Assembly: GCA_947449695.1 (NCBI GenBank)
Contig: CANFST010000024.1
Coordinates: 1-40,869 of the forward strand
Source: Chitinophagales bacterium
GTDB lineage: Bacteria > Bacteroidota > Bacteroidia > Chitinophagales > CAIODY01
Reading direction: 5' to 3'
DNA length: 40,869 bases
Each line of letters starts with the position of its first letter. The first letter of the stretch is position 1. Both the position numbers and the translations under genes were made by a program. Under the pieces are notes generated by a model, which was given only the letters and a program-made list of their open reading frames with translations, was not told where the DNA came from and did not search any database. Positions 1,826 to 16,293 of the stretch are shown here, in pieces.

Positions 1826-3646
1826 TCAATTATTAAATTTAGATGAGTTTGTCTTAACTTTTTTATATTTCACTTCTGGCTCCAATAACGTCAATTGCTT
1901 TGAATTTATGGGCACCATAGTTTCAATGAATTCGTTCCACTTATCTAGTTTGATATTTAGGCTGAATTGCTCATTTATAGCATCAAGCTCTTCTTGAATT
2001 TTCAATCCTGAAGATTGCAATGCAAGTTTCAGGATATCTATTCGCATTAGTATATCCTTTGTAAAAGTTCGTTTCGCATCAGAAAAAGTGATTGCATGTA
2101 AAAACTCTTTTGACTTGTCAGAATTCAAAAGTATTAGTGTATAAGCTGCAAATTCCAATTTATTGAATCCAAGCAAATAGCATGTATCATCAAGCATTAT
2201 TGGTTTACCATTCTGTGGTAAAACCAAATTGAAAAAGTAGTTTTTGTATAAACCCGAAATGGTTATTTTGTATGGAGCAAAAGAGTAATCACCGATTCCG
2301 AAAATTGAATAATCTGGTTTATTGTTGTAGATACTTGATTTGCGCAAATCAAACTGTTCTTTGTTTTTGTGGAGATAGTTGAAAGTTTTTGGGAAATCTT
2401 TTTTGATAAACGAAGTGTCTTGTCCAACTTTTTTTTGTGTGATAATGGTGAATTTTCTTGTCTTATTAATAACAGTTTGTTTAAGGTCTGAGCTTTTCAG
2501 CACACCAAAAACTAAATCTTCTTCCAAATTAATTTCTTGTTGAAGCCCATTTACAAAATGTCCATTTACTCTGTCCAATTCCATAATAGAAGAACAATCG
2601 TGCTTAATTCCTTGTCGCCACTCGAATGGGGAAAGTCCATCAATATCATTGCTGTGTTTGTAAAGTCCAATGCTTGAAACAAACTTATCTTTTACCCAGC
2701 CAAATTGATTTACCATTTTCGCATGGTTGTAGAAATTAAATTCGTTACAAACAAATTCAGGAGATTCATTCAGCTTGCAAAACAACAAAGCTGCCTCAAC
2801 TGAAACATTAAACTCCTTCTTGCTGTCAATTGTTAGTTTTTGTAAGTTGGAAATTTTATAGTTGCGTTGTTGTTGATCATACACCACATTTTTTATCACT
2901 GAATTTTTTACAAGAAAAGCAATGTATCCTTTTGAATTTTGGAATGCATCAAACATCATCAGCGTAATGTATTCGCCAATATCAAAATTCCCTTTGCCTG
3001 TCATGGCATCTAAACCACTATGATTTTTAAAGTTTGATTTTGATGGAAGGTTACTCGATTCCAAGCTACTCAATTTAGAATTCGTTACCCAAGGCGGATT
3101 TCCAATAACTAAAATTTCATCTTCTGAATGTCCTTTAGCGATTTTGCTAAAATCAAAATCAAAAACATTGAAGTGGTTAATTTCTATTTCAGGTTTTCTG
3201 ACTTCGGGATTGTCAATGAAAAATTGAAGGATGTTAAACTTGGTTTCCCATACATAAGGTTTGTAAATCTCAACGCCATAAATTTTTTCAATTCGGTTGA
3301 AAGTATTTAAACAGGCTAAAATAAAATTTCCTTTTCCACAAGTTGGTTCAACAATAATTTTTGGATTCGATGAACCTTGTTTTAAAAACTTTGCAACTTT
3401 ATTTGCTAAATCGGCATTGGTTTGAAAGTCACCATATTCAGTTCTATCAGGTTCTTCAACCAAATATTCTGCTGAAGAAATTATTTCTTTCAATGCTTCA
3501 AATTCTTTCACGTAAACAAAGAAATTTTTGATTCCACAAGCATTCAAAATCTTTTCATTAGCAGATTGAAGTGTTGTTGTTTTGTACAATTCATTGCGCA
3601 AAAAATCTGAAACCTGATGCGTAATATTTGCTTCAAATATTTTCAT
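1826..3646 (-). CDS. Type II restriction-modification adenine-N6 DNA methyltransferase
   Basis: This 606-residue protein carries the gamma-class amino-methyltransferase signature. A segment YGDFQTNADLANKVAKFL (about 72-90) is typical of motif X, VEPTCGKGNFILACL (100-114) is the SAM-binding motif I, and NPPWVTNS (184-191) is catalytic motif IV. The long C-terminal half would hold target recognition. It methylates its site to protect host DNA from the nuclease encoded just upstream. ATG at 3646 is preferred, giving a TGATG stop-start overlap with the nuclease gene; a GTG one codon earlier (3649) is the alternative. Eco57I-like fused enzymes share this fold, but no nuclease motif is visible here and the separate nuclease gene makes this a two-gene system. 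The recognition site cannot be read. Confidence 0.88.
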   Translation of the reverse strand: MKIFEANITHQVSDFLRNELYKTTTLQSANEKILNACGIKNFFVYVKEFEALKEIISSAEYLVEEPDRTEYGDFQTNADLANKVAKFLKQGSSNPKIIVEPTCGKGNFILACLNTFNRIEKIYGVEIYKPYVWETKFNILQFFIDNPEVRKPEIEINHFNVFDFDFSKIAKGHSEDEILVIGNPPWVTNSKLSSLESSNLPSKSNFKNHSGLDAMTGKGNFDIGEYITLMMFDAFQNSKGYIAFLVKNSVIKNVVYDQQQRNYKISNLQKLTIDSKKEFNVSVEAALLFCKLNESPEFVCNEFNFYNHAKMVNQFGWVKDKFVSSIGLYKHSNDIDGLSPFEWRQGIKHDCSSIMELDRVNGHFVNGLQQEINLEEDLVFGVLKSSDLKQTVINKTRKFTIITQKKVGQDTSFIKKDFPKTFNYLHKNKEQFDLRKSSIYNNKPDYSIFGIGDYSFAPYKITISGLYKNYFFNLVLPQNGKPIMLDDTCYLLGFNKLEFAAYTLILLNSDKSKEFLHAITFSDAKRTFTKDILMRIDILKLALQSSGLKIQEELDAINEQFSLNIKLDKWNEFIETMVPINSKQLTLLEPEVKYKKVKTNSSKFNN

Positions 3647-4323
3647 CACTTAGATTTATTTAGACTAACAATTTTTGTTATTCCCTTAACGTTTTCATCT
3701 AAGGTTACAATCCTTTGATATTGCAATCTCCATTGCAAGGCATTAGAAATAGTGAGGTATCCCTGTTCGGGTGGTGTCTGCAAAATTTGTTCAGCTAACT
3801 TTGATAAAGTTATTTCATCAGCAGGTATATTTTTGTCATGAAGAAAAGCAACAATGTCTTCTTCATTGGCTTTGTCTTTAACCATTTCTCTTAATCGAAA
3901 AGTGGTTGTATAATCAGCGGTTCGTTCTCTTGAAACAAACGAACAACTTACAAAATTCAAAAGTGCAGTTTTCGTTTTTGAGTCATCTGTTTTATCATAA
4001 ACAAATACTAGTAAATTATAGCCGAGTCCAAAAACCTTTTGTTTAGCATCTTTAAAAGGACAAGAAGATTGTGGTTGTTTTATTGAAGTAACTTTAATGT
4101 CAGTTAAAATATCTGCCGATGGCAAATCAATTCCACTTGCCGAAGAGCCAATTGCAACCTCATATTTGTCATTCAAATGCTTTTGAAATTTCTGTTCAAT
4201 TAGTGTTCCGACTGCTTTGCCATCCGTTACTCCAAACAGCTCTTTATGTTGAAATTTTGATTGTGATGCACAGAATATTTCAGCTTCTTCAATTAATTTA
4301 TTGATAGTTAATTTCCTTTTCAT
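3646..4323 (-). CDS. Type II restriction endonuclease, PD-(D/E)XK fold
   Basis: This 225-residue protein lies directly upstream of the adenine methyltransferase. A plausible PD-(D/E)XK core is visible: helix ELFGVTDGKAVGTLIEQKFQ (28-47), then GIDLPSADILTDIKVTS (64-80) with D66/D71 and D75-I-K77 as metal ligands and catalytic lysine, then the strand LGYNLLVFVYDK. The remainder is presumably recognition and dimerisation. It would cut unmethylated foreign DNA at the partner enzyme's site. I do not recognise a named restriction enzyme. Its start is immediately followed upstream by AT-rich promoter-like sequence and then the 20-bp-period array, so array and promoter are close neighbours. Confidence 0.75.
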   Translation of the reverse strand: MKRKLTINKLIEEAEIFCASQSKFQHKELFGVTDGKAVGTLIEQKFQKHLNDKYEVAIGSSASGIDLPSADILTDIKVTSIKQPQSSCPFKDAKQKVFGLGYNLLVFVYDKTDDSKTKTALLNFVSCSFVSRERTADYTTTFRLREMVKDKANEEDIVAFLHDKNIPADEITLSKLAEQILQTPPEQGYLTISNALQWRLQYQRIVTLDENVKGITKIVSLNKSK

Positions 4324-4420
4324 TGTTGACTAAAATTATTCTGCTAAATTAATATTCTAAACACCATTTCAATTTTTTTATCAAAGTCATTTATTTTTTT
4401 TGAACAAGATTCAAATGCTT

Positions 4421-4980
4421 AATTATTTCAAAACTTCCATAGAAATCTGAAAAGTTCTATGGTTATTTTCAAAAGAGTATAGTTGTTTCCAAATTACTAA
4501 GGTAATTTCCAAAGTTCTTGAGTTGTTTAAGCCAAGAGTGGAGTAATCTCCAAATAACTTCGGTTATTTCCAAATAACTGGAGTAATCTTAAAAGTTTAG
4601 TCCTCATTTACAAAGTTGTGCTCACATTTCAAGATTTGAGTTCTTATTTTAAAATCTGCACTATAATTTTCAAAAGAGTGTAGTAATTTTCAAATCAGAG
4701 CTCTGATTTCTGAAAGAGTGCTATAATTTCAAAATTTGAGCATTCATCTCCAAAAGAAAGCTTTAATCTTAAAATCTGAATTCAGATTTTCAAATTAGAA
4801 CTCAGATTCCTAAAGAGAGTCTTAATTCCAGAATTTGAATTCTAATCTTAAAATGTGAGCTTTAATTTCAAAAGTTGAGTCTTAATTTTCAAATAAGCGT
4901 TCAGATTTCCAAATGAGTGTTCCTGTTTCAAAATTGCATGGGAAATCTTCAAATCACTAAATAAGTTTTCAAAGAAATTT
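4421..4980. repeat. Degenerate tandem array, strict 20-bp period, about 28 units
   Basis: Between the restriction operon and the copper-storage gene, about 560 bases divide into roughly 28 consecutive 20-base units with only one or two bases of total phase drift. A typical unit is ctttaatttcaaaatttgag; nearly every unit has a core resembling ATTTCAAA or ATCTTAAA at the same position, followed about 10 bases later by GAG/GTG/TGA-like bases. The units are diverged, with few exact copies, but spacing is preserved. All frames contain many stops, so it is noncoding. T-tracts and A-tracts recur every 10 and 20 bases, the helical period, which would favour intrinsically curved DNA. There is no repeat-spacer alternation, so it is not CRISPR. 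Function unknown. Confidence 0.85.
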
Positions 4981-5165: not shown

Positions 5166-5492
5166 ATGAAAAACGTTAAAAGTTGTGTTGCCGCTTGCTT
5201 GGCATGTGTGGTTACTTGCGAAACTTGTATTACTGATTGCATAAAAGCTGGCAATCAGGAATGCATTAAACTATGCAGAGATTGTGCTGACATCTGTGCA
5301 TTGTGTGCCAGATTAGAAGCTCGTGGTTCGGCTTACACTATGGCATTGCATGCTTTGTGTGCTGAAGTTTGTGAAGCATGTGCGACCGAATGCGCTAAGC
5401 ATGCTGCTCATCATGATAGCTGCAAAGCTTGTGCTGATGCTTGTAAAGAATGCGCTGCTATTTGCGAAGAAATGGCTACTGCTAAAGCTTAG
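5166..5492 (+). CDS. Four-helix-bundle copper-storage protein (Csp3-like, DUF326)
   Basis: This 108-residue protein contains 20 cysteines, mostly in CxxC and CxxxC spacings along four predicted helices (C7, C11, C14, C18, C21, C25; C33, C37, C40, C44, C47; C65, C69, C72, C76; C86, C89, C93, C96, C100). Csp proteins are known to line the core of a four-helix bundle with cysteines and hold many Cu(I) ions. There is no signal peptide, so this is the cytosolic type, buffering copper inside the cell. It is transcribed towards the arsenic operon and ends at a shared hairpin. The pattern is distinctive and the call is firm; the metal could be checked only experimentally. Confidence 0.95.
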   Translation: MKNVKSCVAACLACVVTCETCITDCIKAGNQECIKLCRDCADICALCARLEARGSAYTMALHALCAEVCEACATECAKHAAHHDSCKACADACKECAAICEEMATAKA

Positions 5493-5498
5493 TTATTT

Positions 5499-5535
5499 AA
5501 ATAAAAAAGGGAAACAACATGGTTTCCCTTTTTTT
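5499..5535. terminator. Bidirectional terminator between csp and the arsenic operon
   Basis: AAAAAAGGGAAAC (5503-5515), a six-base loop, then GTTTCCCTTTTTTT. The perfect stem is flanked by A and T runs, so it can end transcription of csp on the plus strand and of the MIP gene on the minus strand, whose stop codon (5534-5536) lies inside the T run. The 17 bases before the loop and 11 bases after it are identical to the hairpin at 8239-8272, at the other end of the arsenic operon. Confidence 0.85.
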
Positions 5536-6169
5536 ATTTTATCATTTTCCAGGTGGCAGTGGCTGCTGCTGCGCCAATGATGGGAGCAGTTAAGTAAATC
5601 CACACATTGGTTAAATTACCTGAAACAATGGCTGGCGCTAAGCTTCGAACCGGATTCATAGATGCTCCACAAATCGGTCCTGCAAATAATGCTTCTAATA
5701 ATACAGTGCCGCCAATGGCTAAACCTGCCATTACGCCTACTTCTTTCGAGCCTTGCGAAGTGAATAAAATCACCAGCATTAAAAAGTAAGTGAGGATGAA
5801 TTCTAACACTAAGGATTGCGCTGCCGAGCCTGAAGGCATGGTTGCACCCAATGAAATATTGTCGGGGAATAAAAAATGAAGTGTGTAAGAAGCTGCCAGT
5901 GCACCCACGATTTGAGCCACTACAAAAGGAATAATTTGTTTGGGATTAAAAAGCCCTGCGATGGAAAATGCAATGGTAACAGCTGGGTTGAAATGTGCGC
6001 CTGATGTACTACCAAACGTATAAATCATGGCAGTAACAATTAAACCAAAAGTGATAGCAATGCCTAAATGTGTGATAGCTCCACCAGTTTGTTGATTGAT
6101 AATAATGGCACCTGTGCCACAAAAAACCATGGCGAATGTGCCAATGAATTCAGCTACGTATTTTTTCAT
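5534..6169 (-). CDS. MIP-family channel (aquaglyceroporin-like), arsenic operon member
   Basis: This 211-residue protein has six hydrophobic segments and the two MIP half-helix motifs. The first is canonical (AHFNPAVTIAF, about residue 60); the second is NPV instead of NPA (GASMNPVRSLAPAIV, about residue 170). The N-terminus KKYVAEFIGTFAMVFCGTGAI is typical of the family. MIP channels conduct water, glycerol or neutral As(OH)3. It is the last gene of an operon with arsR and arsC, and AqpS of Sinorhizobium meliloti is a known channel that takes the place of an arsenite pump in an ars operon, so arsenite exit is the likely role (inference from context). It overlaps the upstream gene by 4 bases (ATGA). 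Confidence 0.92.
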   Translation of the reverse strand: MKKYVAEFIGTFAMVFCGTGAIIINQQTGGAITHLGIAITFGLIVTAMIYTFGSTSGAHFNPAVTIAFSIAGLFNPKQIIPFVVAQIVGALAASYTLHFLFPDNISLGATMPSGSAAQSLVLEFILTYFLMLVILFTSQGSKEVGVMAGLAIGGTVLLEALFAGPICGASMNPVRSLAPAIVSGNLTNVWIYLTAPIIGAAAATATWKMIK

Positions 6170-6891
6170 TTTGTTTGTTTTTTACGCCAGTCAATATGTG
6201 AAATCCAAGAAAGTTGCAAATAAAAAAACTTTGTAAGGTCGGTTTGATTGCCTACCCAAAAAGTATGTAAAATGCCTACTTCTAAAGTATTGCTTTTGTT
6301 GAAATTATATCCAACACCAGCATACGCCCAATTTTCAGCGTAAATAGCATTTGCACTTTTAAAAGTGTTGAAGAAAAATTCATTGTAAGCACTCAAATAA
6401 ATTTTATCGGATTGCTTTTGAAGTGGTGTTGAAATGCCAAACAAATAACGAACTCGTGATGTGAGGGGGCTTTTGTTTGCCAAGCGGTCTTGAATAAATC
6501 TTTCGTCAAGACGAATACGATGTTTTAATGTAGTTCGATTGAGGTTGTATTTATAAGTGGCTTGCAAATAAATTCGGTTTTCATTTCGATAGTTGTTTTC
6601 TGTGGGGTGTTGTCTTTCGTAAACATAACTACCAGTAAATGAAAGGTGTGGATTTACTTTATAAGTTAAGGCTTGTTCTGAATAGAAAACAAAGAAATTG
6701 GGTTTTTCATTGGTTGAATTAATCAAATTAAATTCTCCAAAATAATACAAGCTATAATCAAACTTGTTGGATAAAGTACCGCTATGGTCAATGGTGGGGA
6801 ACAAGCCAAAATGCTGTGTGTTTTGAGCATTTGACATACGACAAGTGAGCAAAGCAATTATTATAAATGCTTTGAGTTTTAGTTTTTGCAT
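6166..6891 (-). CDS. DUF2490-like outer-membrane beta-barrel protein
   Basis: This 241-residue protein has an N-terminal signal peptide (KLKAFIIIALLTC, ending near SNAQ). The mature part is rich in alternating aromatic and polar residues in short strands (HLSFTGSYVYERQ, IYLQATYKYNLNR, LKHRIRLDERFIQDR, SAYNEFFFNTF, WAYAGVGYNFNKSN, FFYLQLSWISHIDWR), the pattern of an outer-membrane beta barrel. The HRIRLDERF segment is typical of DUF2490. Function is unknown for the family. It sits between arsC and the MIP channel with a 4-base overlap to the latter, so it might let small solutes such as arsenite cross the outer membrane; that is a guess from position only. Confidence 0.75.
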   Translation of the reverse strand: MQKLKLKAFIIIALLTCRMSNAQNTQHFGLFPTIDHSGTLSNKFDYSLYYFGEFNLINSTNEKPNFFVFYSEQALTYKVNPHLSFTGSYVYERQHPTENNYRNENRIYLQATYKYNLNRTTLKHRIRLDERFIQDRLANKSPLTSRVRYLFGISTPLQKQSDKIYLSAYNEFFFNTFKSANAIYAENWAYAGVGYNFNKSNTLEVGILHTFWVGNQTDLTKFFYLQLSWISHIDWRKKQTK

Positions 6892-6911
6892 GAATTATTA
6901 AGATGTGATAA

Positions 6912-7346
6912 TTATTGGTTGTTGATTTCTTGAATGAAACCTTTAACAGCTTCTTTGATTTTGTTTCTAACCTCTCTAGTAACCGCTAATTTTTCTTCGT
7001 GTGTGCCAGTAAGTGAAGAAGGGTCGGTAAAATTCCAGTTTATTTTTTTATTCAATCCTGGAAAGATTGGGCAGCGGTCAGAAGCTTCTTTATCACAAAC
7101 TGTGATTACATAATTATACAAACGTCCTTCTTTGAAGAAATCGAAAACGGCGTTGGTTTCATTTTGTGAAATGTCAATGCCTTCTTCTTTCATTACTTCC
7201 ACTGCTAATGGATTGAGTGTGCCTTTTTCTAAGCCAGCACTTTCTACATGAAATTTATCGCCACCTAATTGTTTTAAATAGGCTTCGGCCATCTGGCTAC
7301 GTGCTGAATTGTGGATGCAAAGGAATAATACTTTTGTTTTGCTCAT
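6912..7346 (-). CDS. arsC: Arsenate reductase, thioredoxin-coupled low-molecular-weight phosphatase type
   Basis: This 144-residue protein begins KTKVLFLCIHNSARSQMAEA, the Cys-x5-Arg-Ser phosphatase loop with nucleophile C10 and R16. The two further cysteines of the thioredoxin-linked ArsC cascade are C84 and C92 (VITVCDKEASDRCPIF), close to the C82/C89 pair known in S. aureus ArsC. A conserved aspartate follows in NFTDPSSLTG. The enzyme reduces arsenate to arsenite, passing the disulfide from C10 to C84 and then C92 before thioredoxin regenerates it. It lies in the middle of the arsenic operon, and its product arsenite would be the substrate of the downstream channel. Length and residues match the family, so confidence is high. 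Confidence 0.95.
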   Translation of the reverse strand: MSKTKVLFLCIHNSARSQMAEAYLKQLGGDKFHVESAGLEKGTLNPLAVEVMKEEGIDISQNETNAVFDFFKEGRLYNYVITVCDKEASDRCPIFPGLNKKINWNFTDPSSLTGTHEEKLAVTREVRNKIKEAVKGFIQEINNQ

Positions 7347-7379
7347 GATTTTATGTTTTTGATTTGATGAATAAAATGA

Positions 7380-7850
7380 TTAACAACAGCCGCCACCTGG
7401 TGTGCAGCAAGATGCACCTTGTTTAATGTCGGCTAAATTCAATTTGTATTTTTCTGAATCAACACCACATACTTCGGATGCAAGACATTCAGTGTATTTG
7501 TTGATTAACTGAAACTGATTGCCATTGAATTCCACTGCATATTTGCCAATGGTATTGGTTTGATATTCGGCTTCTATTTCAAAATCGGCATTGCCGGTAA
7601 TGAATGCTGATTTATTTAAGATGTCAGCAATCTTAGCGGCAGTTAATCGGTGATTAACATCTTCGGCTACCCAGATTTGAAAAGAGATTAATTTCGAGAT
7701 TCGTTCTTTGCCGCCACAATCAATAAAGTGTTTGGTGATTAAACCCACTTCGGTGATGTGAAAGTGTTGTGGAACGCTGCTATTGTCAGGCAATAGAATA
7801 GTAATGTCACTGACAGTTTCGATGGCTTTTTTAAATTCGGAATATTTCAT
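7380..7850 (-). CDS. DUF6428-like protein of the arsenic operon with Cys-rich tail
   Basis: A 156-residue protein when started at the ATG complementary to 7848-7850 (MKYSEFKKAIETV). A start 87 bases further upstream is open but would overlap arsR by about 70 bases and adds low-complexity sequence, so I reject it. The body looks like DUF6428 proteins that accompany arsR and arsC in Bacteroidota: a phosphohydrolase-free alpha/beta fold with HFHITEVGLITKHFIDCGG. It ends with ASCCTPGGGCC, two vicinal cysteine pairs that could bind As(III). A further pair of cysteines occurs at ECLASEVCG. The biochemical role is not established; an arsenic-binding or handover protein is an inference from the cysteines and the operon. 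Confidence 0.75.
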   Translation of the reverse strand: MKYSEFKKAIETVSDITILLPDNSSVPQHFHITEVGLITKHFIDCGGKERISKLISFQIWVAEDVNHRLTAAKIADILNKSAFITGNADFEIEAEYQTNTIGKYAVEFNGNQFQLINKYTECLASEVCGVDSEKYKLNLADIKQGASCCTPGGGCC

Positions 7851-7866
7851 TTTGTTTGATTTTAGA

Positions 7867-8199
7867 TTAACAACATTTGGGGTTGTTAGAATTTGTTTTA
7901 GTAAAGAATTCGTTGAATGTTTTTTCAAACTTTTCAAAGGTTTTGTAATTGATGCAATAGCAAGATTTTACACCATCCACTGTTCCTTTGATGAGTTCGG
8001 CTTTTAATAATTCTTTGAGATGTTGTGAGACTGTGGATTGTGCTAATGGTAATACTTCTACTATTTCACCACAAATACAAGATTCACGTTTTGCAATTTC
8101 TTTTAAAATAGCCACCCTAGCAGGATGACTGATGGCATTAGCAAAGTCGGCTAATTCATTTTCCTTTTTGCTGAACTCATCTTTTTTATTTAGTGCCAT
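7867..8199 (-). CDS. arsR: ArsR/SmtB-family arsenic-responsive repressor
   Basis: This 110-residue winged-helix protein is the first gene of the arsenic operon. The DNA-binding region reads LADFANAISHPARVAILKEIA then CICGEIVEVLPLAQSTVSQHLKELLKAELI; the two cysteines C41 and C43 (ESCICGE) sit in the helix position used by arsenite-sensing ArsR proteins (ELCVCDL in E. coli). Further cysteines lie in SCYCINY and at the extreme C-terminus (NPKCC). It should repress the operon and release DNA when As(III) bridges the cysteines. A matching inverted repeat overlaps its own -7 box at 8214-8231, which indicates autoregulation. Confidence 0.93.
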   Translation of the reverse strand: MALNKKDEFSKKENELADFANAISHPARVAILKEIAKRESCICGEIVEVLPLAQSTVSQHLKELLKAELIKGTVDGVKSCYCINYKTFEKFEKTFNEFFTKTNSNNPKCC

Positions 8200-12050: not shown

Positions 12051-12082
12051 GTTTTTGAAGAAAAAAAATTAAAAGAGAAATA

Positions 12083-13150
12083 TTATGCAGGGATTGCAGA
12101 ATGTTCAATCATGTTTGAAACCATTTCCCAACGTTTGATTTTTGGTGCTTTGACGTTTCTTATTGAAGATAAATCAGCCATTATTTTATTTGCCAAAACA
12201 TTTGCCATTCTTACAGGAACTGCATTGCCAATCATTTTGTAGCCATCTGCAATGTTCTTATAATAGAATTTGAAATTGTCAGGAAAGGTTTGAATTCTTG
12301 CACACTCTCTAACACTCAATCTGCGATACAAATCTTCTTTTCCTGGCACAAAAATTCTAACATTTTGTTCTACAAACTGAAACTTTGGAGCTTGAGGATG
12401 ACATGGTGCATGACGACCACCAGCTTGAATTGTAAATGAAACTTCATCCCAAGAACGAACACGATTTCTTGACATATAAATAGATGAAAAACCACCAGTC
12501 ATATATTCGTGGTTAGATACTAAACAATTTTCGCCATTGGTAACATTTCCTTTCAATGCAGGTAAAACATTGTCTTTTAAATCACCAATTGCTTTGCTTA
12601 ATGGAATTTTATTTTCTAAAGTTGTAGGCGATGGAAATTCAAATTCAATTCCTAAATCAGAACGATAGCCAACGAAGAAAACTCTTTTTCTATCTTGTGG
12701 TACGCCATAATCTGAAACATTCAACATTTGAAAGGACAAATTATAACCACATTCGCGAAACATACTCTTAATATTTTCCAAAGCATTTCCGTGTGCTGCT
12801 AAAAGCATTCCCGATACATTTTCTGCAAGAAAAAATTTAGGTTGTTTATCTGCAAGAATTCTAATAAAGTCATAAAAAAGTTGACCACGTTTATCTCCAA
12901 TGCCTCTCATAGCGCCAGCTTCACTCCAGCTTTGACAAGGCGGACCACCAATTATTCCATCACAATCAGGAACTTCTTTTGTTGGAATATCTGTGATACT
13001 TCGTGTGTCTAAAAAAACACCGCTGTGGTTTTTCTCATAAGTTTCCCAAATTGATTTATCATATTCATTTGCCCAAATAACATCAAAGCCAGCTTTTGAA
13101 AAGCCTAAATCTAAACCGCCAGCACCTGCAAAAAATGTAACCAATTTCAT
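12083..13150 (-). CDS. DNA cytosine-C5 methyltransferase of an NgoPII-like (GGCC-type) system
   Basis: This 355-residue enzyme has the C5-methyltransferase motifs in order: FAGAGGLDLGF (7-17, SAM binding), GGPPCQSWSEAG (68-79, catalytic C72), AENVSGML (109-116), VPQDRKRVFFVGYR (150-163), RECARIQTFPDNF (281-293) and GNAVPVRMANVLA (308-320). The enzyme flips out a cytosine and methylates C5, protecting the host site. Its partner nuclease resembles NgoPII, whose known site is GGCC, so GGCC is the likely target (inference). It overlaps the ATPase gene by 4 bases. Its C-terminal end reaches close to the ArsR promoter. Confidence 0.93.
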   Translation of the reverse strand: MKLVTFFAGAGGLDLGFSKAGFDVIWANEYDKSIWETYEKNHSGVFLDTRSITDIPTKEVPDCDGIIGGPPCQSWSEAGAMRGIGDKRGQLFYDFIRILADKQPKFFLAENVSGMLLAAHGNALENIKSMFRECGYNLSFQMLNVSDYGVPQDRKRVFFVGYRSDLGIEFEFPSPTTLENKIPLSKAIGDLKDNVLPALKGNVTNGENCLVSNHEYMTGGFSSIYMSRNRVRSWDEVSFTIQAGGRHAPCHPQAPKFQFVEQNVRIFVPGKEDLYRRLSVRECARIQTFPDNFKFYYKNIADGYKMIGNAVPVRMANVLANKIMADLSSIRNVKAPKIKRWEMVSNMIEHSAIPA

Positions 13151-14676
13151 ATTGTGTTTTTTAAATTAGTTAAAAATTGGTTTAAATGTTCCTTATTCCC
13201 TGATTTCCATCTATTAAATAACTTAGAATAGCCTCTACCAAAAAAATCTTTTTTTAGCCCTTCATCCTCAAACCAATTTTTAGCTATATTTTGATTTGAA
13301 CCATTTTGGTGGTCTTTAAAACAAGTTTCCTTTGTATGATTTAATGCCTCATTCCAAAAGTTATCAGAATCTGACAAAGATTTAATAAAATGATACATTT
13401 CTACTTCAACTCCTTTATCAGTAGGTAAAAAGCAAATATTTTTCGGAACACCTTTTTTATCAAATTCTATACGAACATCTCCATCCAACACATATCTACA
13501 TTTTTGCAACTCTTTATTTTTGCTCTCTGCTAAGTTCTTAAGATTTCCTTTGGGTAAATTAGCACCACAAGGATTTATTGTTTTGCTTAATTCAGTATTT
13601 GAAATTAAATTTTTAATCCAAAGTTCAGCGGATAAGTCTTCACATACAACATTTATTTTTTTTATTTTTTCTATTTTTTCTTTTTTTCCTCTTTCAGCTT
13701 TAATTTTCAATTTAATAAAATCAATTGAAGGATTGATTTCACATTTAATTTCTTTATCAAATAATTTAAGAAAATTAATCTTCACCCCTTTACCCAAAAA
13801 GGTATCTTCTCTAATGTTTTTATCAATAACCTCTAAAATCTCAAGAGAATGTGTTGAAAAAATAATTTGCAAGTTTAAATCAGCTGCATATTTATTCAAT
13901 ACTTCAATTAATTTAATTTGAGAGCCTGCATAAAGCGTTGCATCAATTTCATCTATAAGTATTATACCTCCATGATATCCTATTCCTAAACTCTTTTTCA
14001 ATCTTTTGAAAGATAATATTGATGATACTATTTGCCCTATATTATCTTGTCCAGCAGAGTTTCCTAAATGACTGTATTTATCAGTCTTCATTGCCAAAAT
14101 TTTTTTGTTAGTAGTCCTAATGGAATCTACCTTTATATCATCTCCAAATATTAAAAGAATTTCTTTAGAAAGAGCATTAAACAAATTGGATTCTTCTGTG
14201 GTAAGATTAATGATATTTTTTTCAATTTTATCTTCTGTTGCAATTGGAATTAATCTTTTCAAACCAAGATAAATTATGGGGTAATCGATAGCTTTTTTAC
14301 CCTCTCCTTTATTTCTATTAAAATCAGCTCTATATCTTTTGTCTTTGGAATTAGTAATTACAGTAAGTCTTGTTGAAATATCTTTATCATTGATGTTTTC
14401 TTGAATACTATATTTGAATTTAACTTTATAGTTTTTATCCCAATCACTATCAGGACAGAATCTAAATATTTTACTCCAGTCTTCTTCAAATTTATTACCA
14501 TTCAATTGTTTTTCTGAGCCATTGTATTTACATAATTGTGCAACCCAGCCTAATACAGAAGACTTACCTGTACCATTTTGACCAGCAATGACTGTTATTC
14601 TTTCTCCAAATTCAATAGTTGTGCCTTTAATATGTCTAAAGTCCTCGATAAATAAATTCAGTAGCCTCATAATCAA
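13147..14676 (-). CDS. OLD-like AAA ATPase with C-terminal TOPRIM-type nuclease region
   Basis: This 509-residue protein starts RLLNLFIEDFRHIKG, then Walker A GQNGTGKSS (32-40), an ABC-like signature NSAGQ (206-210), Walker B GGIILIDEIDATL (236-248) and the switch histidine in FSTHSLEIL (273-281). The C-terminal region has VVCEDLSAELW (E346) and YVLDGDVRIEF (D398 and D400), matching the acidic Glu and DxD motifs of TOPRIM nucleases, followed by LPTDKGVEVEMYHF. OLD-family proteins are ATP-driven nucleases in phage defence, for example in Gabija and retron-linked systems. It lies between the restriction nuclease and the methyltransferase, overlapping both by 4 bases, so it is part of that operon. 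Its exact role there is unknown. Confidence 0.85.
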   Translation of the reverse strand: MIMRLLNLFIEDFRHIKGTTIEFGERITVIAGQNGTGKSSVLGWVAQLCKYNGSEKQLNGNKFEEDWSKIFRFCPDSDWDKNYKVKFKYSIQENINDKDISTRLTVITNSKDKRYRADFNRNKGEGKKAIDYPIIYLGLKRLIPIATEDKIEKNIINLTTEESNLFNALSKEILLIFGDDIKVDSIRTTNKKILAMKTDKYSHLGNSAGQDNIGQIVSSILSFKRLKKSLGIGYHGGIILIDEIDATLYAGSQIKLIEVLNKYAADLNLQIIFSTHSLEILEVIDKNIREDTFLGKGVKINFLKLFDKEIKCEINPSIDFIKLKIKAERGKKEKIEKIKKINVVCEDLSAELWIKNLISNTELSKTINPCGANLPKGNLKNLAESKNKELQKCRYVLDGDVRIEFDKKGVPKNICFLPTDKGVEVEMYHFIKSLSDSDNFWNEALNHTKETCFKDHQNGSNQNIAKNWFEDEGLKKDFFGRGYSKLFNRWKSGNKEHLNQFLTNLKNTI

Positions 14677-15518
14677 TTAACTTTAAAGGTTATTAATTTA
14701 CAATTCAACAATTGTGCTGGATTATTTGGATTTTTGATTTGAACATCCTCAAAAGAATAATTTTCTTTTTTTAGATTTTGAAGAGCCATTTTATCAGCAG
14801 TTGGAAATGAATTAAACTTATCAGTTTTCATTAAACACAAAATTTGAAACGATGTATTTGGGTCAACTTTGTTTAAATACGAAAAGATTTTGTGTGGATT
14901 TTCAATATGCCACATACCACGAATTCGCAAATCAGTTACACCCAAAGGGTCAACTTTTTTTACTTTGCCTAATTCATTTGTTTCGGTAAATTCAACATTA
15001 GGAATGGTAGTTATTCCAGAAGAAATGGTTGTCTTGATTTTTTCGTAAACCTCTTTATCGGCTGAGAAACAATCACCATAAACAAACCATAGATACTTAA
15101 TGTCTGTGTCGTTTGTATGACCAATGATGTAAACAATATCTTTTTCAGTCCAATCTTCACAATTTTTACAAGCCTGTGTAATCATTGGGCTATCCGCAAA
15201 AAGTTTAGCTTTAGGATATGAACTATTCAACGCCAAAGCGCTTGTTGGGCTTTGAACTTTTTTGGTTTCGATGGCATCTCCATTACGAAGAATTATATCA
15301 GGTGGGTTATTTTGATTTCCTAAATAGGAAAAGACTTCATTGAACTTTTGCAATCTTTCGGCTTCGGATAATTCAAATGAATTAGCAAAAATATCTTTCA
15401 CATAATTTTCCAACGCTTCGCCCACAGAGTTAGCTCTGTTGCGACCAGTGTAATAATCTTTAACCTGAATAATTGGATTTTCTGTGATTCTTTTTATTGC
15501 TTGTAAAAGATTGGACAT
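14673..15518 (-). CDS. Type II restriction endonuclease, NgoPII family
   Basis: This 281-residue protein matches my recollection of the NgoPII family along its length: LLQAIKRITENPIIQVKDYY, TGRNRANSVGEALENYVKD, and GVTDLRIRGMWHIENPH. The catalytic core is PPDIILRNGDAIETKKV: D74, E84 and K86 form a PD-(D/E)XK site. NgoPII is known to cut GGCC; the adjacent C5 methyltransferase would protect the same site. It is the first gene of a three-gene operon with the OLD-like ATPase and the methyltransferase. A TAAATTTG -7 box sits 27 bases upstream. The family call is strong; the recognition site is inferred from the family. Confidence 0.88.
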   Translation of the reverse strand: MSNLLQAIKRITENPIIQVKDYYTGRNRANSVGEALENYVKDIFANSFELSEAERLQKFNEVFSYLGNQNNPPDIILRNGDAIETKKVQSPTSALALNSSYPKAKLFADSPMITQACKNCEDWTEKDIVYIIGHTNDTDIKYLWFVYGDCFSADKEVYEKIKTTISSGITTIPNVEFTETNELGKVKKVDPLGVTDLRIRGMWHIENPHKIFSYLNKVDPNTSFQILCLMKTDKFNSFPTADKMALQNLKKENYSFEDVQIKNPNNPAQLLNCKLITFKVN

Positions 15519-15544
15519 GCTTCGAATGAAAAATTTTGAGACTA

Positions 15545-15552
15545 CAAATTTA
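15545..15552 (-). promoter_or_regulatory. -7 box (TAAATTTG) of the NgoPII-like operon
   Basis: The minus strand reads TAAATTTG, an exact match to TAnnTTTG, 27 bases before the restriction nuclease ATG. A good -33 TTG is not seen at the usual spacing. No controller-protein (C-box) repeat was found in this short upstream region. Confidence 0.5.
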
Positions 15553-15666
15553 CTAAATTCATTCTGAAATAATTTTAAATGCTTTTAAAGAACAAAGAAA
15601 TTTTTGGGTTATCAAAAAAAACTCTCTCTCCTCAACAATCTAACTCAAAACAATTTTTTAAAATAA

Positions 15667-15699
15667 AAAAAGTCGGCTGTGTTTTACAACCGACTTTTT
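15667..15699 (-). terminator. Terminator after the DinB-like gene
   Basis: AAAAAGTCGG (15667-15676) pairs with CCGACTTTTT (15690-15699), extended inside by TGT/ACA. T runs on both strands allow termination of the DinB-like gene on the minus strand. It separates that gene from the restriction operon. Confidence 0.8.
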
Positions 15700-15721
15700 C
15701 TTTTTAATGCTGTTGAGAAAA

Positions 15722-16213
15722 TTATCCTAAAGCTACTGTCCAGGCTTCTTTGGTGCCCAAATGTGTTTTGCCATTCATCTTTAAGTATAAAAACAATTGC
15801 ATGCGGTAAGTTGCCAACCATTTGATTGGCGCATTAATAATTGCAGCACCCAAAACCATTTCTTCTTTGTTGGGCAACAAAACTTTTTTGTTGATTAAAT
15901 CATCCTCGGTGATGCCATCCATGTAGGCAATTATTTCTTTGCGTTGTTCTTCTAATCGTTCAGCAAAGTTTTCAATAGTGAGTGTTTTGCGATAAGCTCT
16001 GATTTTTTCCCATTCTTCAGGGTTCAAATCATTTTTTATAAACCAACGCAACATCGTAGCGCCAATGCCCGATACATACATCATCAGCTCGTGAGTACTT
16101 CTCACTTTTTCATTGGGGCGAAATTCTAAATCATCTGCTTCAATGTGTGTAGCCAAGTTTTTCAGCAAATCAATTTCACGAAGCAGGTTGTCAGTCAAGT
16201 GTTGTTTGTACAT
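15722..16213 (-). CDS. DinB-like four-helix protein
   Basis: This 163-residue protein is all-helical and has the DinB-family plan: HLTDNLLREIDLLKNLATHI, then STHELMMYVSGIGATMLRWFI with a histidine in the helix where DinB-like proteins bind a metal, then FAERLEEQRKEIIAYMDGI and PIKWLATYRMQLFLYLKMNG, ending in THLGT with another histidine. DinB-like proteins often act as thiol-dependent transferases or are of unknown role. It is divergent from homogentisate dioxygenase with a shared 166-base upstream region, so a link to aromatic catabolism is possible but not shown. Confidence 0.8.
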   Translation of the reverse strand: MYKQHLTDNLLREIDLLKNLATHIEADDLEFRPNEKVRSTHELMMYVSGIGATMLRWFIKNDLNPEEWEKIRAYRKTLTIENFAERLEEQRKEIIAYMDGITEDDLINKKVLLPNKEEMVLGAAIINAPIKWLATYRMQLFLYLKMNGKTHLGTKEAWTVALG

Positions 16214-16293
16214 AATTATTTTGCGGATTATTGTTTTAGAATTAGTGAAACAAAGATAGTGGTAGGTTGTTCAAAAAAATAAAACACTTAAAA

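Follow-up and report, generated by a model that had tools for sequence, protein, structure and literature searches.

The 20-bp array in our window (the whole 40,869-nucleotide stretch of Chitinophagales DNA that we analysed) appears to belong to a class of intergenic arrays found across its genus. These arrays have in common a pitch close to two turns of the helix (20, 20.5 or 21 bp), are often dyad-symmetric and have no common sequence. We propose that a symmetric protein binds them, and give this reading, which we built from sequence comparison, a probability of about 0.4.

The array itself is real. A sequence-only reading had described a noncoding array of about 28 units at 4421-4980 with an exact 20-bp period, and its coordinates and unit count were essentially right (Table 1). 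The autocorrelation it asked for shows a sharp peak at lag 20. Identity is 0.556 at lag 20, 0.535 at lag 40 and 0.508 at lag 60. Across 500 dinucleotide shuffles of 4421-4980, identity at lag 20 is 0.296±0.020, with a maximum of 0.372. A unit caller that leaves the spacing free to vary returns 25 spacings of 20 bp, one of 21 bp and one of 19 bp. The "almost no indels" of the sequence-only reading thus amounts to two changes among 27 spacings.

The sequence of the units is far less uniform. Neighbouring units have a mean identity of 0.56 versus a background of 0.29, the mean over units is 53%, and similarity drops with distance along the array. Units carry the core TTTnnAAAT, which places regular TTT/AAA tracts every 20 bp. 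Several inter-core positions hold about 0.1 bit, versus up to 1.6 bits. Tandem Repeats Finder, which had been proposed as a check, recovers only fragments (periods 20, 21 and 99) because the units are too diverged. The array is non-coding, since there are 12-20 stops in each of the six frames and its coding score is below zero.

Table 1. Features in and around the array; positions refer to the window unless a contig of its genome (G000) is named.
Feature	Position	Strand	Basis
Array: 28 diverged units of 20 bp with core TTTnnAAAT	4418-4977	.	Autocorrelation and free-spacing unit calling; consensus on the minus strand resembles GCTCTAATTTTGAAATTAAA
Homologous segment, about 4.5 units in the same order as in the G001 array	4425-4513	-	blastn E 4e-17; best of all registers
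Perfect 18-bp palindrome unit AAATCAGAGCTCTGATTT	4692-4709	.	Read directly from sequence
Perfect 20-bp palindrome unit AAAATCTGAATTCAGATTTT	4771-4790	.	Read directly from sequence
Type II restriction endonuclease gene	3646-4323	-	NCBIfam NF052465, E 1e-101
Probable DNA methyltransferase gene, same system	1826-3649	-	MmeI_Mtase, weak match E 1.3e-4, under curated cut-off
Four-cysteine DUF326 protein gene, opposite side of array	5166-5492	+	Pfam PF03860
70-bp two-hairpin element	G000 C4:53304-53372, C17:10365-10433, C19:28035 and 28528

The same period recurs with different bases at other loci of the same genome. This comes close to a check suggested by the sequence-only reading, which was to look for it next to other restriction or defence operons. 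Our scan covered 1.34 Mb of the genome to which the window belongs (G000, about 43%; estimated to be 99% complete and 4% contaminated) and 0.51 Mb of a sister genome of the same genus (G001, about 17%). The scan assumes no period (9-90 bp, scanning frame 105 bp, z≥5.5), and coding and non-coding arrays were separated by a dicodon model trained on the scanned DNA itself, with crude gene calls. Of the 16 non-coding tandem arrays in G000, 14 repeat every 20-21 bp or at twice that period: one array at 20, nine at 21, three at 41 and one at 42, the others being at 11 and 14. Three arrays are marginal with z<6 (C2 at 11, C3 at 42 and C7 at 41); with z≥8, 12 of 13 lie at 20, 21 or 41. The 47 coding arrays of G000 do not peak there: nearly all are multiples of three, and only three are at 21. 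Ten of the 11 non-coding arrays of G001 lie at 20, 21 or 42. There is no peak at 20-21 in 0.40 Mb of G036, from another family of the order, where both non-coding arrays have period 14. The 0.30 Mb of E. coli contain two non-coding arrays, neither at 20-21 (one in the annotated gene gfcA, one a tRNA cluster), and 1 Mb of simulated Markov sequence contains none.

Arrays of the class are intergenic and occur in every gene orientation. Their units are mostly unrelated (TGGGCGGATGCCCACAACTTT, TTTTCGCAGGTGCGAAACTTT, AAACATTTTGTTTCCGCATGG, ATTCCGTTTATCATAAACGGA, TTTTCTATCCTATCAATTTGA, CTCTTAATTATCAATAGTTGAATAAGTTATTGATGGTTTTG and others); the arrays at C7 and C19:28330 have both a common unit and a common flank. 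The consensus is more dyad-symmetric than column-shuffled units in about half of the arrays (8 of 17 at P≤0.01).

Two pairs of arrays illustrate the turnover of units at each locus. The arrays on C4 and C17 of G000 have a 70-bp left flank element that is 100% identical and a 196-bp right flank that is 94% identical. Their units are only 46% identical between the arrays, versus 64 and 74% within them, and one dyad pair is A-T in six of eight units of one array and G-C in five of six of the other. Similarly, the G000 array at C1:990 and its positional counterpart in G001 have a 92% identical flank and a common 21-bp pitch, with units 64% identical between and 83 and 69% within. A 42-bp array of G001 (L252) has no array at the matching G000 locus, and the G000 array at C1:22 kb is missing from G001. 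With arrays gained and lost from one sister species to another, no single array is essential, a point against our protein-bound reading. A dispersed 70-bp two-hairpin element (GTTGTCGGAGTTTGTCCTCCGACAAC and CGTTGGTGAACAAACACCAACG; Table 1) adjoins some 21-bp arrays and resembles REP-type elements.

Spacing is conserved much more strictly than sequence, as the sequence-only reading had claimed. In aligned non-coding DNA of G000 and G001 the indel:substitution ratio is 19/184=0.10; from the published mutation-accumulation data on seven bacteria in Table 1 of PMC4978911 we compute about 0.10-0.36. After correcting neighbour identity for background, a ratio of 0.10 predicts about 15 spacing changes in the window array where we see two (P=3.8e-5), with unit divergence being a rough estimate and the units sharing ancestry. 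The deficit has P=0.02 for a ratio of 0.05 and is not significant for 0.03. Among the class arrays, 17 of the 19 analysed keep a spacing of exactly 21, 41 or 42 bp throughout, with neighbouring units 49-87% identical. For these strict arrays we expect between 21 (ratio 0.03) and 71 (ratio 0.10) spacing changes and see none, a deficit inflated because detection favours regular arrays and overstated because one frame stays free of stops in some of the 21/42-bp arrays. For the 20- and 41-bp arrays, coding is impossible. These results suggest that spacing, not sequence, is what is kept, and selection on the period is plausible.

The main rival needs no selection. A tandem-duplication process of the genus could prefer 20-21-bp repeats that contain palindromes, for example by slippage through hairpins or between sites two turns apart, and error-prone local copying would then yield diverged units whose spacing is neither selected nor used. 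Gain and loss of arrays among close species, homogenisation of units locus by locus, a similarity that drops with distance along the array and a near-perfect 21-bp repeat in a sister genus all speak for a purely mutational origin. It requires no protein and explains the sequence diversity at once. However, simple decay is not expected to bring units down to 49-60% identity and hardly touch their spacing, and core positions are conserved between species. We regard duplication with a two-turn step as a possible though somewhat doubtful cause, and hold the geometry of a protein-bound array above it.

Conservation of the core is seen when the window array is compared with its relatives. One draft genome per species represents the genus: G000, G001 and a second sister genome, G002. 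Each of the three yields exactly one array when searched with a pattern of four cores spaced 20 bp apart, and 38 other genomes of the order yield none; the same pattern reversed, as a control, matches once, in G024. Searching for the window core in 398 genomes of the order returns arrays only in this genus, bar a few that are built differently. In G001 the array (C121:22.5-22.9 kb, 19-20 units) comes after a gene for a T9SS-type protein, close to gyrA. In G002 the array (C2:0.66-1.04 kb) has a VOC-family gene on one side and a broken sigma-factor gene on the other. In G000, gyrA adjoins parB and parA (L178:7428-13483, contig C51); downstream of gyrA, G001 has accessory genes and the 20-bp array.

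The three arrays are related by descent. Over 89 bp, about 4.5 units in order, the G000 and G001 arrays are 81% identical without gaps (blastn), far above the 53-59% typical between units within one array. The same register is also the best for G001 versus G002. In the homologous segment the core is 89-93% identical and the remainder 48-69%, a contrast that is partly a product of how the segments were found; the one clean comparison, G000 versus G001, gives 91% in the core versus 69% elsewhere (P=0.012). Outside the homologous segment each species has its own unit consensus, which is concerted evolution.

The relatives also bear on the restriction genes. The sequence-only reading had placed the array directly behind the promoter of a restriction-modification operon. 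That promoter is putative; the array lies 94 bp upstream of the start codon of the minus-strand type II restriction gene. A control region of this operon is one rival reading of the array. The homologous arrays in G001 and G002 adjoin other genes, with no restriction genes alongside, and many other intergenic regions carry arrays of the same period. No common neighbour gene was found among the three homologous arrays. Stretches of synteny between G000 and G001 are generally short, so the differing neighbours of their arrays are not special. An unrelated 20-bp array beside a type I hsdM-hsdS pair in another genome (L150, below) speaks for such control, as does the 94-bp distance. The sister genomes have already largely refuted it; we consider it very improbable, and on present evidence the restriction endonuclease gene is not part of the array's function. 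The sequence-only reading had said that homologous arrays with freely varying unit length and no link to neighbouring genes would count against it. The link to neighbours is indeed absent, but unit length does not vary freely.

The window holds two further gene groups. At 12083-15518 lies a second restriction-modification island, with an NgoPII-type endonuclease, an AAA ATPase and a C5 cytosine methyltransferase. It is missing from the matching place in G001 (blastn break, window 12060-16290) and is thus a recent gain or loss. An aquaporin, a DUF2490 protein, an arsenate-reductase-like phosphatase and an ArsR-like regulator follow in a row at 5534-8199, probably an arsenic resistance cluster.

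Phased A/T tracts that bend the DNA, another idea of the sequence-only reading, did not hold up. The TTT/AAA tracts are regular at 20 bp, which speaks for intrinsic curvature. However, in two wedge models, predicted curvature is no higher than in dinucleotide shuffles, and often lower: it is not raised in the window, G001 or G002 arrays, and a Bacillus array (L149, below) is predicted to be straighter than its shuffles. Bends at a period of 20 rather than 21 would rotate out of plane, and the conserved part of several class arrays is GC-rich. By these models, intrinsic curvature is the least probable of our alternatives.

Alternatively, the arrays could act as RNA, with tandem hairpins serving stability, termination or as a sponge, or as single-stranded DNA that forms cruciforms under supercoiling. 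Both strands fold strongly (z of -5.7 and -5.8), the units are dyad-symmetric and the dyad pair is swapped between C4 and C17. But the two strands fold equally well, gene orientation around the arrays varies and Rfam gives nothing above chance. Among dyad mismatches there is no G-U versus A-C asymmetry (P=0.83), and this missing strand bias points to double-stranded DNA. Covariation within arrays is positive, but it is weak, and choosing the centre biases it upward; within units it is too weak to prove hairpins. A role as RNA or single-stranded DNA is improbable, though cruciforms would be compatible with these points.

Other candidates were dropped. Tandem Bacteroidota promoters (TAnnTTTG) number zero in the three genus arrays, and sigma-70-like sites (9 versus 4.7±2.5 expected) are not convincing. 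Short 20-bp arrays beside 269- and 720-aa genes in Paenibacillus raised the suspicion of Tn7-like or IS-end binding sites; neither gene has an NCBIfam match, and the 720-aa gene has no Pfam match. A phage or plasmid origin of the array found no match.

Our best guess is therefore stated for a cooperative binding array, and the protein, its cooperativity and any effect on neighbouring genes are what we infer. The units of one array would be multiplied and homogenised locally, so that loci and species drift apart, each towards a consensus of its own. What would be retained through this drift is the pitch, often the symmetry and, in the window array, the TTTnnAAAT core. Each unit would be a site for a symmetric (dimeric) protein that binds double-stranded DNA. 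The units are too different for one sequence-specific protein, so recognition by shape must be assumed, and the putative protein would probably be of the nucleoid type. At a two-turn pitch the units would lie on nearly the same helix face and be bound cooperatively as a filament, and cooperativity would keep the pitch. The window array has the regular pitch and conserved symmetric core that such binding calls for, though with a pitch of exactly 20 rather than 21 its units are not strictly all on one face. The putative filament may have a local effect on supercoiling or insulate promoters nearby, without being tied to one gene. We read the array at best as a platform of double-stranded DNA with fast turnover, whose geometry would be kept, probably for a repeatedly bound dimeric protein. 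The fuller version, a genus-wide class of intergenic DNA set by geometry and not sequence, with often dyad-symmetric units at two helical turns that change fast at each locus and are read by a putative shape-specific nucleoid protein, strikes us as rather unlikely.

If spacing is selected, most such intergenic arrays are functional yet invisible to similarity searches, and in other bacteria they would come to light in a simple test for period across the genome. They would also offer a tractable bacterial model for a period conserved during sequence turnover, which is otherwise studied in eukaryotic satellites. If the geometry reading is true, the arrays are a prokaryotic counterpart of satellite DNA, with the period and not the sequence under selection. 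If the cause is mutational, the arrays point to an undescribed duplication process in the genus, whose step is fixed at two turns.

Similar 20-bp arrays in Bacteroidetes (L137, L150) and Bacillus (L149) mean that the phenomenon may be wider; all three were found by a pattern that fixes the period and are no evidence for the period itself. L150:4342-4640, in the Bacteroidetes MAG Umea_bin-03168, is the array beside hsdM-hsdS, with 15 units unrelated to those of the window. L149:2541-3002, in Bacillus sp. HF117, is intergenic, with 23 units (TTTCGAAATCCGGATAGTAA) at 20 bp, two spacing changes and 75% identity, and is a possible cultivable model. In another family of the order, long and more uniform arrays (L081; G057 C272:31 kb and C97:16.7 kb) alternate between 20 and 21 bp (mean 20.6; consensus AAAAAAAACACTTGATTTTG). 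The near-perfect 21-bp repeat of the sister genus (CACCCTTCACCATTCCCTCTT; L183:11195-11366, at the end of G003 C6) runs off the contig end and is possibly a young member of the same class.

Several known systems come close. Bacterial minisatellites (VNTRs) also consist of head-to-tail intergenic units of about 10-100 bp with local gain and loss and homogenisation per locus, and the 28 units of 20 bp fit this form. Minisatellite units are near-identical, with a copy number that varies within a species, whereas ours are far more diverged (53%) and still hold their spacing, and one period is common to many unrelated loci. Plasmid iterons are direct repeats of about 20-22 bp, on one helix face and bound by protein. 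They adjoin a replication initiator gene; the window array has no replication gene close by, 28 highly diverged copies, chromosomal-type neighbours (restriction and DUF326 genes) and no plasmid match. Phased A-tract curved DNA likewise has A/T tracts whose period is close to a multiple of the helical repeat, but the window array is not predicted to be curved. Structured RNA arrays show strand-specific pairing, in which one strand tolerates G-U, and clear covariation, which the window array lacks along with any Rfam family. In the open-access literature, of which our coverage was partial, we found no description of degenerate 20-21-bp intergenic arrays in Bacteroidota with a common pitch and no common sequence. 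REP and BIME clusters and REPINs (PMC3116915) are palindromic intergenic units that are sometimes clustered. They disperse one family sequence genome-wide, whereas the window unit occurs in one array per genome, and the class has a unit per locus at a fixed 20-21-bp pitch. The window array thus resembles minisatellites, REP elements and iterons in part and lacks a defining feature of each. Beggiatoaceae also carry many sets of intergenic direct repeats, TAACTGA, within one genome, with a proposed regulatory role (PMC4679880). There, one heptamer is common to all sets; here, it is the period that is common, and not the sequence.
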